Source: an uncultured Pontibacter sp.
Lineage (GTDB): Bacteria; Bacteroidota; Bacteroidia; Cytophagales; Hymenobacteraceae
Length of the DNA stretch: 64,000 bases
Direction of reading: 5' to 3'
Assembly: GCF_947499215.1 (NCBI RefSeq)
Contig: NZ_CANMNI010000002.1
Span: forward strand, 930,001 to 994,000
The notes below the pieces were generated by a model. That model made no database searches. It was not told where the DNA came from and was given only the letters and a program-made list of their open reading frames with translations. Below, piece by piece: positions 58,463 to 62,206 of the stretch. Position 1 is the stretch's first letter. Each line of letters begins with the position of its first letter. The position numbers were made by a program, and so were the translations under genes.

Positions 58463-59278
58463 ATGCCTGACACAAAACAGCTCCAACCCTATTATACCAT
58501 CATTTCCGGCCAAAGCCCCCTAATCGCCACCGCCATACACGACGGCCACACCGTGCGTGACAACATCAGCAGCCTTTTTTCGCTCACTTCAGAGGAGCGG
58601 ATGCGCGAAGAAGACCCTTTCACGGCGGGCTGGGTAAGTATAACCGATAACCAGATCATTGGTTTAAACTCCCGCTTTGAAATGGACCTGAATCGCCCGC
58701 GGGAGAAAGCCATCTACCGCAAACCCGAGGACGCATGGGGCCTCACCGTCTGGAAAGACGAACTGCCCGAGGAGCTGGCACAGGAATCATTGGCCTGCTA
58801 CGACCAGTTTTATGCCGCCGTGAAAAAGATGCTGCAAGGTATAGTCGACCGCCATGGCTGCATTGTGGTGTATGACCTGCATACCTACAACCACCGACGC
58901 GACGGCGCCGACGGACCAGAGGCCGACCCGCAGGAAAACCCCGAGGTAAACCTCGGCACCGGAAACATGAACCGTGCCCTCTGGGCGCCGGTGGTTGATG
59001 CCTTTACCCAAAACCTGCAGCAATACGACTACCAAGGCCGCCACCTCGATGTGCGCGAGAACGTGAAATTCCAAGGCGGCCATTTCATGCGCTGGATTCA
59101 CGATACTTTTCCCGACCGCGCCTGTGTCATCTCAATCGAGTTTAAGAAGTTCTTTATGGACGAGTGGACAGGCAAACCTGACGAAGCCCAGCTGCGGGAA
59201 ATCAAAAAAGCGCTGCAAAGCACGATAGAGCCTGTATTGGCAGCGCGCGAACAGGTATGCAAAACCCTCTCGCCATGA
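58463..59278 (+). CDS. N-formylglutamate amidohydrolase family protein
   Basis: A 271-residue hydrolase-like protein of the FGase family. Motifs: ATAIHDGHTVRDNI (His26 and His29, metal-like), NSRFEMDLNRPREKAIYR, GCIVVYDLHTYNHRRDG and ALWAPVVDAFTQNL, then VISIEFKKFFMDEWTG. True FGases act in histidine breakdown, but no hut genes are near. Instead the next gene (DUF1704) starts within its stop codon (ATGA) and an ATP-grasp gene follows, so this is part of a dedicated three-gene pathway of unknown substrate. Confidence 0.85.
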   Translation: MPDTKQLQPYYTIISGQSPLIATAIHDGHTVRDNISSLFSLTSEERMREEDPFTAGWVSITDNQIIGLNSRFEMDLNRPREKAIYRKPEDAWGLTVWKDELPEELAQESLACYDQFYAAVKKMLQGIVDRHGCIVVYDLHTYNHRRDGADGPEADPQENPEVNLGTGNMNRALWAPVVDAFTQNLQQYDYQGRHLDVRENVKFQGGHFMRWIHDTFPDRACVISIEFKKFFMDEWTGKPDEAQLREIKKALQSTIEPVLAAREQVCKTLSP

Positions 59279-61131
59279 CCGACACCATTTCTGACATTTT
59301 CATAAAAGGCATCGTCCGGAGTCTGAAGCGTGGCCGGCAGGTACGCCGACGGCTGCCCGATGGGGGCTTGCTGCACATTGACAGGCCGCTGCCCTTTCTG
59401 GTGCTCTACCGCCACCCGGCTGGCCAGCCCGACCATGCCACCGCCGACTTCGTGAAAGCCGAGGCGGCTTACATCATCGCCCGCGAAGAGCAGACACCCG
59501 AACTGCGCCGACTGATAAGCGAGATAGTCAAAGCCATGGCCGACGAGTTTGGCGCTTTTATGGTGCTCGAGCTATTTGCGGCTCCTGATATAAGCGCAGC
59601 TAACAGCCCGACTTTTCGGGTATTGGGGCCGGAACAGGCGCTGCCCGCCACCATTCGCACGCTCAAAGATGAGCTGGCTAAGATAAAGATCAGCAACCTG
59701 CCCGTTTCGGTGGCTACGGCCTCTAACCAAGCCTTACTGGAAGGACCCAACAGTCTGATGAGCGAAGAAGAACTTAAACAGCACAGTGCGCTCATGCTCG
59801 GGCTTGAGTTGAAGCCCATCTACCGCCAAGCCAGTTCCGGACAGGTATACCCTTTGCTGCAACGCACGCTCCGCACCCATGTGTCGAGCGCCATCAAAAA
59901 GGCCGTGTTCGACTTTGTGCGCGTGCAGACCTCGCATCAGCCGCAGCACTTTCAGGCGCTGGGCAGGCAGGCCGTGGTGCCCGCCGTCTGGCGCATCGAC
60001 AAGCAACTTACCGCCATTAGCGATCAGTTCAGGTTTCTGTTGCTTATCACGCCTATCAACGCAGATGATGCTTGGGAGGAGTTTCGTAAAAAGAAGTTCA
60101 AGCACGCGCCCAACTTTCACTACCGCCTGATGCCCGTGGACGCAGACATGCTCAAGCGAAAACTCTACAACATACCCATCGAGAAGGTGGAGGACCCGAC
60201 GCTGGCTTTCCTGTTCCGGGACAAGCGCCACGAGCTCGACAAAACCCTGAGCATGCTCGCCGACCGCAACACGCCCCATTTTCTGTACAGCAGCCTGCAG
60301 CTGTTTGGCGGTGTGGATGAGCATTTGCTGAAAGTGGCCGAAGGTATACTGGCCGCTATACCCGAGCCTACGCGCGACGAAAACGTGCCGCTTATACCTG
60401 TAGATGAATTTGCCGCATTGGCCGAGCAGGAAATCGCTTTTCTGAAAAGCCAGTACCCGAAACTCGACTCGGGCGTGGACATCCGCAAAGACATTGTGGG
60501 ACTGATCGTTTCCAAGGGCAGACTCAACATCGGAACCGACGCCAAAATACCGCGTCACCGTGCTGAAGCGCTGATACAGCACGAAGTGGGCACGCACATC
60601 CTCACCTACTTCAACGGCAAAGCCCAGCCGCTGCAGCAGCTTTATGTGGGTGTGCCGGGCTACGAGGAGCTGCAGGAAGGACTCGCTGTGCTGAGTGAGT
60701 ACCTCGTGGGGGGACTAGACCAAGACCGGCTCCGCATATTGGCCGCCCGCGTGGTGGCGGTGCATCACCTTACCAAAGGCTGCAGTTTTACCGACAACTT
60801 CTGCCGCCTTAAGGAAGAGTATAGTTTCAATGACGACACGGCCTTTAACGTGGCCATGCGCGTGCACCGGGGCGGCGGACTCACCAAAGACGCCGTATAC
60901 CTGCGTGGGCTCGTGCACCTGTTGCATTACCTCAAGGAAGGACATGAACTGGAACCGCTCCTCATTGGCAAAATACGGCAGGAATACATTCCGATAGTAC
61001 AAGAGCTCATCTACCGCCAAGTACTGCGGCCAGTACCCATCCGGCCGCGCTACCTTACCGACCCGGCCGTGCAACCCAAATTGGAAAAACTAAAAGCAGG
61101 GATATCAGTATTTAACTTACTGGAAAATTAA
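59275..61131 (+). CDS. QEGLA-motif DUF1704 metallopeptidase-like protein
   Basis: A 618-residue protein from ATG 59275 (ATGA overlap with the previous stop); an alternative ATG lies at 59257. The N-terminal 250 residues are helical and uncharacterised. The C-terminal region has IQHEVGTHILTYFNG (HExxxH at 436-440) and GYEELQEGLAVLSEYLVGGL (from 463), the QEGLA hallmark of TIGR02421/DUF1704. The family is homologous to the eukaryotic tubulin tyrosine-removing carboxypeptidases MATCAP1/2, so a zinc carboxypeptidase is likely. The annotation 'flavohemoglobin expression modulating' is an indirect association. Confidence 0.88.
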   Translation: MTDTISDIFIKGIVRSLKRGRQVRRRLPDGGLLHIDRPLPFLVLYRHPAGQPDHATADFVKAEAAYIIAREEQTPELRRLISEIVKAMADEFGAFMVLELFAAPDISAANSPTFRVLGPEQALPATIRTLKDELAKIKISNLPVSVATASNQALLEGPNSLMSEEELKQHSALMLGLELKPIYRQASSGQVYPLLQRTLRTHVSSAIKKAVFDFVRVQTSHQPQHFQALGRQAVVPAVWRIDKQLTAISDQFRFLLLITPINADDAWEEFRKKKFKHAPNFHYRLMPVDADMLKRKLYNIPIEKVEDPTLAFLFRDKRHELDKTLSMLADRNTPHFLYSSLQLFGGVDEHLLKVAEGILAAIPEPTRDENVPLIPVDEFAALAEQEIAFLKSQYPKLDSGVDIRKDIVGLIVSKGRLNIGTDAKIPRHRAEALIQHEVGTHILTYFNGKAQPLQQLYVGVPGYEELQEGLAVLSEYLVGGLDQDRLRILAARVVAVHHLTKGCSFTDNFCRLKEEYSFNDDTAFNVAMRVHRGGGLTKDAVYLRGLVHLLHYLKEGHELEPLLIGKIRQEYIPIVQELIYRQVLRPVPIRPRYLTDPAVQPKLEKLKAGISVFNLLEN

Positions 61132-61156
61132 TCCCAACAAATACTTATATATAGAC

Positions 61157-62206
61157 ATGACAATAGGATTCGTAGTAAACGATGTAAATACAGAACAACC
61201 CGGCCACACCACTATTTTTATAGCACAGCGAATGCACAATGCAGGGCATACGGTGGTGTTGATGGGCGTAGGTGACCTTGCCTACTATCCCGACGGCTAC
61301 ATGGGCGCCAATGCCGCCATCGCCGATATGAAGCATAAGTATAAATCGCCGGCCACATACCTAGAAGCCATACAAGGCTCGAAGGCAAAGCGCACCCGCA
61401 TCACGGCACCCGAACTGGATGTGCTCATGCTCCGCAATGACCCTTCTTCAGAAGGTGAAGGCCGCGGCTGGGCCCAGAACGCGGGCATTATTTTCGGTCA
61501 ATTGGCTTTGCGCCACGGCGTGATCGTGCTCAACGACCCGACTTCACTCTCCGATGCGGTGAACAAGATGTATTTCCAGCACTTTCCGGAGGCGGTGCGC
61601 CCCCGTACGCTCATAACCCGCGATAAGGATGAGATTAAGGATTTCTTCAACGAGCAGAAAAACAACATTATCCTGAAGCCACTGCAGGGCTCAGGCGGCT
61701 CGGGTGTGTTCATGGTGAAGAAGAACGACGCGACCAACCTCAACCAGATCGTGGAGGCCATCAGTCGCGACGGCTACGTGATTGCACAGGAGTACCTGCC
61801 ACAGGCCACTGAAGGCGACATACGCCTCTTCGTTGTGAATGGCGAGGCGTTGCAGTACAAAGGGAAATACTGCGCGCTACACCGCGTAAACAGCAAAGAC
61901 GATATCCGCAGCAACATACACGCCGGTGGCTCCGCCGTGGCCGCCAAAATCACCCAAACCGCATTAGATTTGGTAGAACTGGTACGTCCGAAACTGATAC
62001 AAGACGGCATGTTTATGGTAGGCCTCGACATTGTAGGCGACAAGTTGATGGAGATCAACGTGTTTAGCCCGGGCGGCATGCCGACTGCCAGCAACTTGGA
62101 GGGTGTGGACTTCTCCATACCTCTCATTGAAGCGCTCGAGCGCAAGGTGCATTACAAAAACACCTACGGCACCCAGATTGATAACAAAACGGTGGCGATG
62201 ATCTAG
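61157..62206 (+). CDS. GshB-like ATP-grasp ligase
   Basis: A 349-residue ATP-grasp enzyme resembling glutathione synthetase: IGFVVNDVNTEQPGHTTIFIAQRMHNAG at the start, LDVLMLRNDPSSEGEGRGWAQNAGI, NKMYFQHFP and LKPLQGSGGSGVFMVKK (ATP loop), YVIAQEYLPQATEGDIRLFVVNGE, and the metal site MEINVFSPGGMPTASNLEG. A true glutathione pathway would need gshA, which is absent; 25 bases separate this from the DUF1704 gene, so it probably joins an amino acid to a peptide or metabolite handled by the two hydrolases. Confidence 0.85.
   Translation: MTIGFVVNDVNTEQPGHTTIFIAQRMHNAGHTVVLMGVGDLAYYPDGYMGANAAIADMKHKYKSPATYLEAIQGSKAKRTRITAPELDVLMLRNDPSSEGEGRGWAQNAGIIFGQLALRHGVIVLNDPTSLSDAVNKMYFQHFPEAVRPRTLITRDKDEIKDFFNEQKNNIILKPLQGSGGSGVFMVKKNDATNLNQIVEAISRDGYVIAQEYLPQATEGDIRLFVVNGEALQYKGKYCALHRVNSKDDIRSNIHAGGSAVAAKITQTALDLVELVRPKLIQDGMFMVGLDIVGDKLMEINVFSPGGMPTASNLEGVDFSIPLIEALERKVHYKNTYGTQIDNKTVAMI

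Follow-up and report, generated by a model that had tools for sequence, protein, structure and literature searches.

A conserved trio of a GshB-like ligase, a DUF1704 protein and an amidohydrolase in Pontibacter: a possible make/unmake module for a small N-acyl peptide

Why would a ligase that resembles glutathione synthetase be encoded together with two hydrolases, one an N-formylglutamate amidohydrolase (NFGAH) and the other a DUF1704 protein? These three genes, here called the trio, lie on one strand in the order NFGAH, DUF1704, ligase within a 64,000-nucleotide stretch of DNA from an uncultured Pontibacter sp. (assembly GCF_947499215.1, contig NZ_CANMNI010000002.1, positions 930,001 to 994,000), which we refer to as the window. 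The bacterial members of a family noted for a tubulin detyrosinase make up DUF1704, and the initial annotation of the window suggested a system that adds and removes a residue or acyl group. We tentatively favour a reading in which the trio makes and unmakes a small N-acyl amino-acid peptide, probably an acidic one; in place of the annotation ‘glutathione synthase beside hypothetical protein’, this offers a module that can be tested. The individual families were already known; what we consider new is their combination, a degenerate domain in DUF1704, the exchange of one hydrolase for another and a coupled loss, the last three of which were not foreseen in the initial annotation. The neighbourhood itself may figure in a 2009 survey of ATP-grasp amidoligases by Iyer et al., which is said to describe related neighbourhoods.

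The family names first given to the trio hold, since every profile score exceeds its cut-off: NFGAH scores 70 bits against PF05013 FGase (cut-off 28.9), DUF1704 scores 289.5 bits against PF08014 MATCAP, which is the same family (cut-off 27), and the ligase scores 180.9 bits against GSH-S_ATP PF02955 (cut-off 23) and 457.4 bits against NF009110/PRK12458 (cut-off 408). The genes are also kept together. In a scan of genome contigs for relatives, the best 80 of 587, a sample that leans to close relatives, carry titles of Bacteroidota, Balneolaceae, Planctomycetota, Poribacteria, Calditrichaeota, Acidobacteriota, Gemmatimonadota, Kiritimatiellae, Verrucomicrobia, Actinobacteria and several proteobacterial groups (many matches are metagenome bins, whose taxon names may be wrong). 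With loci from further genomes, these 80 brought the number scored to 126; 104 of them are flanked by 2.5 kb or more on each side, and the other 22 were dropped. At all 104 well-flanked DUF1704 loci a ligase lies within 3.5 kb. The commonest gene orders are NFGAH-DUF1704-ligase (51 loci), DUF1704-ligase followed by an AspA-type hydrolase (22) and symporter-ligase-NFGAH-DUF1704 (12). When neighbouring open reading frames (ORFs) from 86 loci were clustered, the NFGAH/DUF1704 cluster was found in 51 lineages and the ligase in 46, with anything else in at most seven.

Presence and absence across whole genomes follow the same pattern. DUF1704 is found in six of 118 genomes of the window’s phylum; in a single family, that of genome G053 (probably Flavobacteriaceae, judging by named AspA-type loci), 189 of 397 genomes carry it. 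From this family two batches of 20 loci were picked by score and type rather than at random. In this family sample, 177 genomes have a strong ligase hit (E <1e-50, our own threshold), 162 of them above the curated cut-off; another 159 have only weak ATP-grasp matches (E about 1e-18 to 1e-29), which were left out. All 177 strong-ligase genomes carry DUF1704, and not one of the 208 genomes without DUF1704 has a strong ligase (Fisher p 2e-99; here and below, p-values ignore relatedness), so that within the family sample the ligase occurs only with DUF1704. The initial annotation had asked whether the trio is conserved across Bacteroidota and Proteobacteria or is a chance grouping confined to close relatives; the linkage at 104/104 loci under many phylum names and the co-occurrence in 177/177 genomes contradict the latter.

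DUF1704 is a two-domain protein. Its AlphaFold2 model has a mean predicted local distance difference test score of 91.9 (residues 1-6 fall below 50), and residues 261-623 of this model align with the MATCAP structure 7z6s_C over 291 residues (VIA Z 24.9, root-mean-square deviation 3.0 Å); Foldseek relates the model to MATCAP 7z5g_D (E 6.2e-9). The relation to the tubulin detyrosinase proposed at the outset is thus borne out by fold. The metallopeptidase site, HExxxH plus a glutamate, is present (HEVGTH at 442-447; E474), which makes this domain a predicted zinc carboxypeptidase. An HExxxH motif occurs in 125/125 DUF1704 ORFs selected by the motif QEG(L/I/M)A (122 HExGxH, 3 HExATH). The first approximately 245 residues, on the other hand, are a degenerate NFGAH domain, as judged by both profile and fold: residues 1-245 match an NFGAH profile with an hhalign probability of 91.6 (E 8.2e-7, 178 columns, 14% identity), and residues 34-225 of the model align with NFGAH 2q7s over 177 residues (VIA Z 14.3, root-mean-square deviation 3.0 Å; Foldseek E 9.6e-4). 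The hhalign controls gave 0.6 or less (reversed profile 0.3; ligase profile 0.2; C-terminal domain against NFGAH 0.6; N- against C-terminal domain 0.1). Among 110 long DUF1704 proteins (ORFs with QEG(L/I/M)A and no more than 800 residues), both NFGAH motifs occur only at locus L011, and three others have one loose match each. The degenerate domain is missing altogether from short forms of DUF1704 (about 390 residues), which occur in G053’s family. Residues 248-611 also match TIGR02421, the ‘flavohemoglobin expression-modulating QEGLA motif protein’, at 320.6 bits, just under the cut-off of 338.65; we found no tested mechanism behind this name in the literature searched, nor a tested function for any bacterial DUF1704 member. 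The family is also listed as COG3930, which we take to be the same as DUF1704.

The best solved relative of the ligase is Escherichia coli GshB, 1gsa (phmmer E 3.2e-36; Foldseek E 5.3e-23), with RimK the next closest fold. The two share the fold and the ATP-grasp residues, and K174, D221, R223, D291, E299 and N301 are invariant in 43/43 trio ligases. They differ in that the trio ligase has no gshA partner, scores below the glutathione-synthase equivalog cut-offs (given below) and reads SPGG where E. coli GshB reads SPTC; among the trio ligases the P and first G are kept in 43/43 and the S in 42/43.

The third member of the trio provides what we regard as the best clue to the chemistry. NFGAH carries the motifs HDGH, DLNR and DLHTYN, and H26, E49, E50, D51, N77, R78, H140, E226 and E234 are invariant in 31/31 aligned homologues, with N77-R78 belonging to the DLNR-like motif; catalytic roles for these residues are predicted from their conservation. 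This gene is not constant: 75 of the 104 loci have NFGAH only, 22 have only a hydrolase of the AstE/AspA family (PF24827 in those scored), none has both, and seven have neither. The AspA-type enzymes look active, in that their HGNE, DLNR and DCHT motifs are intact in 14/14. On the DUF1704 tree, which includes 22 rows without a label, the AspA type comprises 21 rows and requires one change (support 98); the exchange is a single event kept by descendants. NFGAH and AspA/AstE families deacylate N-acyl-Glu/Asp, that is, small N-acyl acidic amino acids. Because NFGAH is replaced by another family with this preference, the chemistry of the trio probably concerns N-acyl amino acids. Furthermore, at L011 an NFGAH with HDGH and DMHSYN motifs is fused to DUF1704 in one 667-residue ORF, and this fusion, together with the mutual exclusion of NFGAH and AspA, argues for one substrate shared by the trio.

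Another observation concerns the loss of genes. Twelve of the 189 DUF1704-positive genomes of the family sample have no strong ligase hit, and 11 of their loci were taken, later than the 104 and outside that count (G454 was not taken at its locus). Ten have DUF1704 without ligase or NFGAH; the eleventh, L208, keeps NFGAH at a contig end and is excluded from the loss count. Elsewhere in the ten ligase-less genomes no NFGAH of the trio type turned up (PF05013 is absent from eight, and two have one strong match away from the locus), and in all 16 NFGAH-type genomes of the same search PF05013 is found at the locus. This joint loss indicates that the ligase and NFGAH form a coupled unit in which NFGAH follows the ligase and not the carboxypeptidase; it also indicates that DUF1704 has work independent of the ligase.

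We infer from these patterns a module acting in three steps on one compound. At the expense of ATP, the GshB-like ligase would activate a carboxylate and couple it to an amino acid; DUF1704, through its MATCAP domain, would strip the C-terminal residue; and NFGAH, or AspA in one clade, would cleave the acyl bond of the resulting N-acyl amino acid, the alpha-carboxylate of which is free. In DUF1704, the dead NFGAH domain probably docks a partner or the substrate. That the substrate is acidic is suggested both by the preference of the NFGAH and AspA families for N-acyl-Glu/Asp and by a dicarboxylate symporter that adjoins 19 of the 104 loci, all in G053’s family (PF00375 in the two that were scored by Pfam).

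Several observations weigh against this make/unmake reading. Near the 86 loci only the trio recurs, and no apparent dedicated acyl donor enzyme does so. The NFGAH and AspA profiles have no detectable homology (probability 0.3), even if their insignificant alignment still matches up the HxG/HGN, DLNR and DxH motifs, and the exchange between them rests on one change. A PF05013 protein is found elsewhere in eight of 17 AspA-type genomes; in seven of these eight a GCS2 match is about 1 kb away, as in a second cluster of the window’s host genome (see below). Among the seven loci with neither hydrolase, four (L132, L133, L135 and L138) are in genomes with another DUF1704 copy. Among 20 genomes without DUF1704, one (G127) encodes an NFGAH similar to that of the trio. 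The joint loss is not predicted by a simple linear breakdown path: L198-L207 keep DUF1704 without ligase or NFGAH, nine of the ten beside a dicarboxylate symporter, and the short-form tree requires four changes for the losses, at least three of them forced by supported branches (L103 and L199 are one locus, as are L116 and L198, so that 12 rows represent ten loci).

Bearing these points in mind, the make/unmake module may work like a known cycle. The mammalian N-acetylaspartylglutamate (NAAG) cycle consists of a RIMKLA/B ligase, the carboxypeptidase GCPII and aspartoacylase. The trio resembles it, by family only, in combining an ATP-grasp ligase, a zinc carboxypeptidase and a hydrolase of N-acyl acidic amino acids, and its AspA-type clade uses the aspartoacylase family itself. 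It differs in that its ligase is GshB-like rather than RimK-like, its carboxypeptidase is MATCAP rather than GCPII, most loci have NFGAH, and the genes form one operon. In a more specific form, which we consider doubtful, the trio would be a bacterial NAAG-like cycle in which an N-acyl acidic dipeptide or short N-acyl peptide functions, under salinity control, as an anionic solute or store, with DUF1704 as the constant hub and the ligase and amidohydrolase as a swappable cassette (NFGAH or aspartoacylase). If true, the pairing of ATP-grasp ligase and MATCAP would be a prokaryotic parallel to the eukaryotic tubulin ligase/carboxypeptidase pair. The link to salt comes from Photobacterium damselae, in which, according to an RNA sequencing study that compared 1% with 3% NaCl, the ‘GshB’ A0J47_RS17020 rises 38.42-fold and the ‘QEGLA’ protein A0J47_RS17025 rises 27.51-fold (PMC10308900); we count this low-salt rise in favour of the make/unmake reading. 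The authors discuss A0J47_RS17020 as a glutathione synthetase (PMC10308900), which, given the neighbouring locus tag RS17025, it may not be. In Vibrio vulnificus, VV2_1203 (COG3930) and VV2_1204 (glutathione synthetase) are listed as consecutive clade-2-specific genes (PMC3091676). Our own literature searches found no paper linking DUF1704 with ATP-grasp enzymes or NFGAH with RimK; those on ATP-grasp with aspartoacylase, or on NFGAH with glutathione synthesis and operon, found only unrelated work, going by titles and abstracts.

An alternative, somewhat unlikely in our estimate, is that the trio modifies a protein tail: the ligase would add a C-terminal residue, MATCAP would remove it, and NFGAH would remove an acyl or side-chain addition. 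The precedent is the tubulin tyrosination cycle, in which the ATP-grasp ligase TTL is paired with MATCAP/TMCP much as the trio pairs an ATP-grasp ligase with a MATCAP-fold carboxypeptidase. MATCAP1 is indeed the closest solved structure to the carboxypeptidase domain, RimK, the next ligase fold after GshB, extends the tail of S6, and DUF1704 persists at ten loci without a ligase. RimK of P. damselae is moreover up 52-fold in the same low-salt condition (PMC10308900). Set against this, the ligase is nearer to GshB than to RimK, and the NFGAH and AspA families act on small N-acyl amino acids. The trio also has an amidohydrolase and a degenerate NFGAH domain ahead of its peptidase domain that the tubulin system does not. 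The initial annotation had proposed a search of the flanks for a conserved small acceptor protein; none recurs near the 86 loci among ORFs of at least 60 residues (shorter ones were not searched), and an unlinked acceptor is possible.

The three enzymes could instead belong to a loose amino-acid and peptide salvage operon, each with its own substrate and all serving nitrogen or glutamate recovery. Such a role would suit NFGAH, AspA and carboxypeptidases, which are typical catabolic enzymes, as well as the finding that symporter and DUF1704 can persist alone. We nevertheless judge it unlikely: a conserved ATP-consuming ligase is ill-suited to pure catabolism, and the restriction of the ligase to DUF1704 carriers in the family sample, the NFGAH-DUF1704 fusion and the clean exchange of hydrolases all point to one pathway.

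A pathway for a low-molecular-weight thiol, in which glutathione or a cysteine-containing analogue would be produced by the ligase and recycled by the two hydrolases, is quite unlikely. It is suggested by the GshB family of the ligase, by a rhodanese near five of the 104 loci, by four second copies next to an ORF identified as BshC wherever it was scored (three of the four), and by two ligases, the second of L012 (279.4) and that of L013 (286.5), which exceed the PRK05246 cut-off of 272 and make a glutathione-like ancestry plausible. The window’s own ligase misses both glutathione-synthase equivalog cut-offs (PRK05246, 215.9 against 272; TIGR01380, 198.2 against 299.05). In agreement with the initial annotation, which noted that gshA was not near, PF04262 is absent from the host genome, whose sole GCS2 protein belongs to a separate amidoligase cluster and is under every glutamate-cysteine-ligase cut-off scored. 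PF04262 was likewise found in 0/397 genomes of the family sample, the controls E. coli and Bacteroides ihuae being detected. GCS2 occurs in 78/397, namely in just 45/189 DUF1704 carriers against 33/208 others (p 0.058). Both gamma-Glu-Cys ligase families searched are therefore absent from 144/189 carriers. On this gene content we reject a glutathione role as unlikely for most carriers, though it may hold in some of the 45/189 that do carry GCS2; the glutathione label is doubtful for carriers in this sample that have no known gamma-Glu-Cys ligase family. As for BshC, these neighbours look like one shared synteny.

The least credible explanation, that ordinary Hut or glutathione genes were grouped here by chance, draws on the family names only and is extremely improbable, since, for the entire operon, it is contradicted by the score of NFGAH against the HutG equivalog TIGR02017 (26.4; cut-off 278.75), the absence of PF04262, the 104/104 linkage, the co-occurrence of ligase and DUF1704 and the conservation of the trio under many phylum names. 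The early remark that textbook roles do not fit is thus upheld by the HutG and glutathione-synthase scores; its companion, that no hut genes are near, stands for the NFGAH-family member, which is not HutG, and hutH and hutU were not searched.

The layout of the operon in the window is given in Table 1. The genes run in one direction, as first described; the reported ATGA overlap between NFGAH and DUF1704 holds if DUF1704 begins at its second ATG (59275-59277), the NFGAH stop codon TGA being at 59276-59278, and the longest DUF1704 ORF begins at 59257. A gap of 25 bases (61132-61156) separates DUF1704 from the ligase. The nearest named relatives of the window are Pontibacter, whose DUF1704 protein is at most 92% identical. 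Promoter-like sites are at the level of shuffled sequence (5 against a mean of 4.2), TAnnTTTG matches are no more frequent than by chance, and terminator-like sites number 10 against 5.9 in shuffles (standard deviation 2.6), none clearly belonging to the operon.

Table 1. Features of the trio operon, in window positions
Feature	Position	Strand	Basis
NFGAH-like zinc amidohydrolase (predicted), PF05013, 271 residues, not HutG	58463..59278	+	profile match, conserved residues
DUF1704/MATCAP protein, 624 residues counted from first ATG	59257..61131	+	profile match, ORF
Degenerate NFGAH domain, DUF1704 residues 1-245, without HxGH, DLNR and DLH motifs	59257..59991	+	profile and fold
Predicted MATCAP metallocarboxypeptidase domain, DUF1704 residues 261-623	60037..61125	+	fold
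HEVGTH, predicted metal-binding motif, DUF1704 residues 442-447	60580..60597	+	motif
QEGLA motif of DUF1704, holding E474, the likely third ligand	60673-60687	+	motif
GshB-like ATP-grasp ligase, PRK12458 subfamily, 349 residues	61157..62206	+	profile match, fold

Apart from the symporter, an ion or osmotic theme among the neighbours was not robust against a distal control and was dropped. Pfam matches to 146 neighbouring ORFs (a subset of a 45-locus list) include MgtE_N (4), CorA (3), AA_permease (4) and SDF (2), and the control, made up of 150 ORFs from 34 loci at a distance of 4.5 kb or more, includes mechanosensitive channels (6) and AA_permease (3); MgtE and CorA are not among the 25 families listed for it.

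The host genome has two PF05013 matches, the trio NFGAH and one at L017, outside the window, where a C39-like peptidase, an RLAN ATP-grasp protein, GCS2 and NFGAH form a cluster (L017:7714-11883). Like the trio, this cluster combines an ATP-grasp ligase and an enzyme of the NFGAH family; unlike the trio, it has a GCS2 amidoligase, and DUF1704 is missing from the L017 stretch. It lies behind arginine-synthesis genes, with argC, argB and argH above their cut-offs and argD-, N-acetylornithine-carbamoyltransferase- and argE-like genes below theirs. An association of the trio with such RLAN/GCS2 clusters was considered and set aside, the weaker-scoring GCS2 being found in 29/189 carriers and 19/208 others (p 0.065, not significant).

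The five rhodaneses near DUF1704 resemble 3-mercaptopyruvate sulfurtransferase (L012:12316-13137, L013:7770-8609, L131, L136 and L149); that of L012 scores 205 bits, under the cut-off of 250. Between rhodanese and NFGAH, L013 (8612-8938) and L131 encode a small protein (108 and 123 residues), which at L013 has no Pfam or NCBIfam match. The second DUF1704-ligase copies of L132, L133, L135 and L138 lie between bshC, a bacillithiol-synthesis gene that NCBIfam confirms in L133, L135 and L138, and guaA, confirmed in L133 and assigned by eye elsewhere; this setting is probably one shared synteny.

At four loci with planctomycete titles (L039, L041, L088 and L097), two DUF1704 genes are accompanied by as many as three ligases in succession, an arrangement that could allow stepwise ligation; both DUF1704 sites are intact in all four, one L088 ligase has no usual Lys motif, and the L041 ligase ORFs are fragmented. 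At L139 (7042-8720), L141, L142, L149, L199 and L204, the short DUF1704 gene is followed downstream by two similar-looking tandem ORFs of about 285 and 270 residues, which we named alpha/beta-hydrolase-like by eye. Finally, the host genome encodes a cyanophycin synthetase (L005:811-3273; 1142 bits against 850), the ORF of which is cut by the end of the locus.

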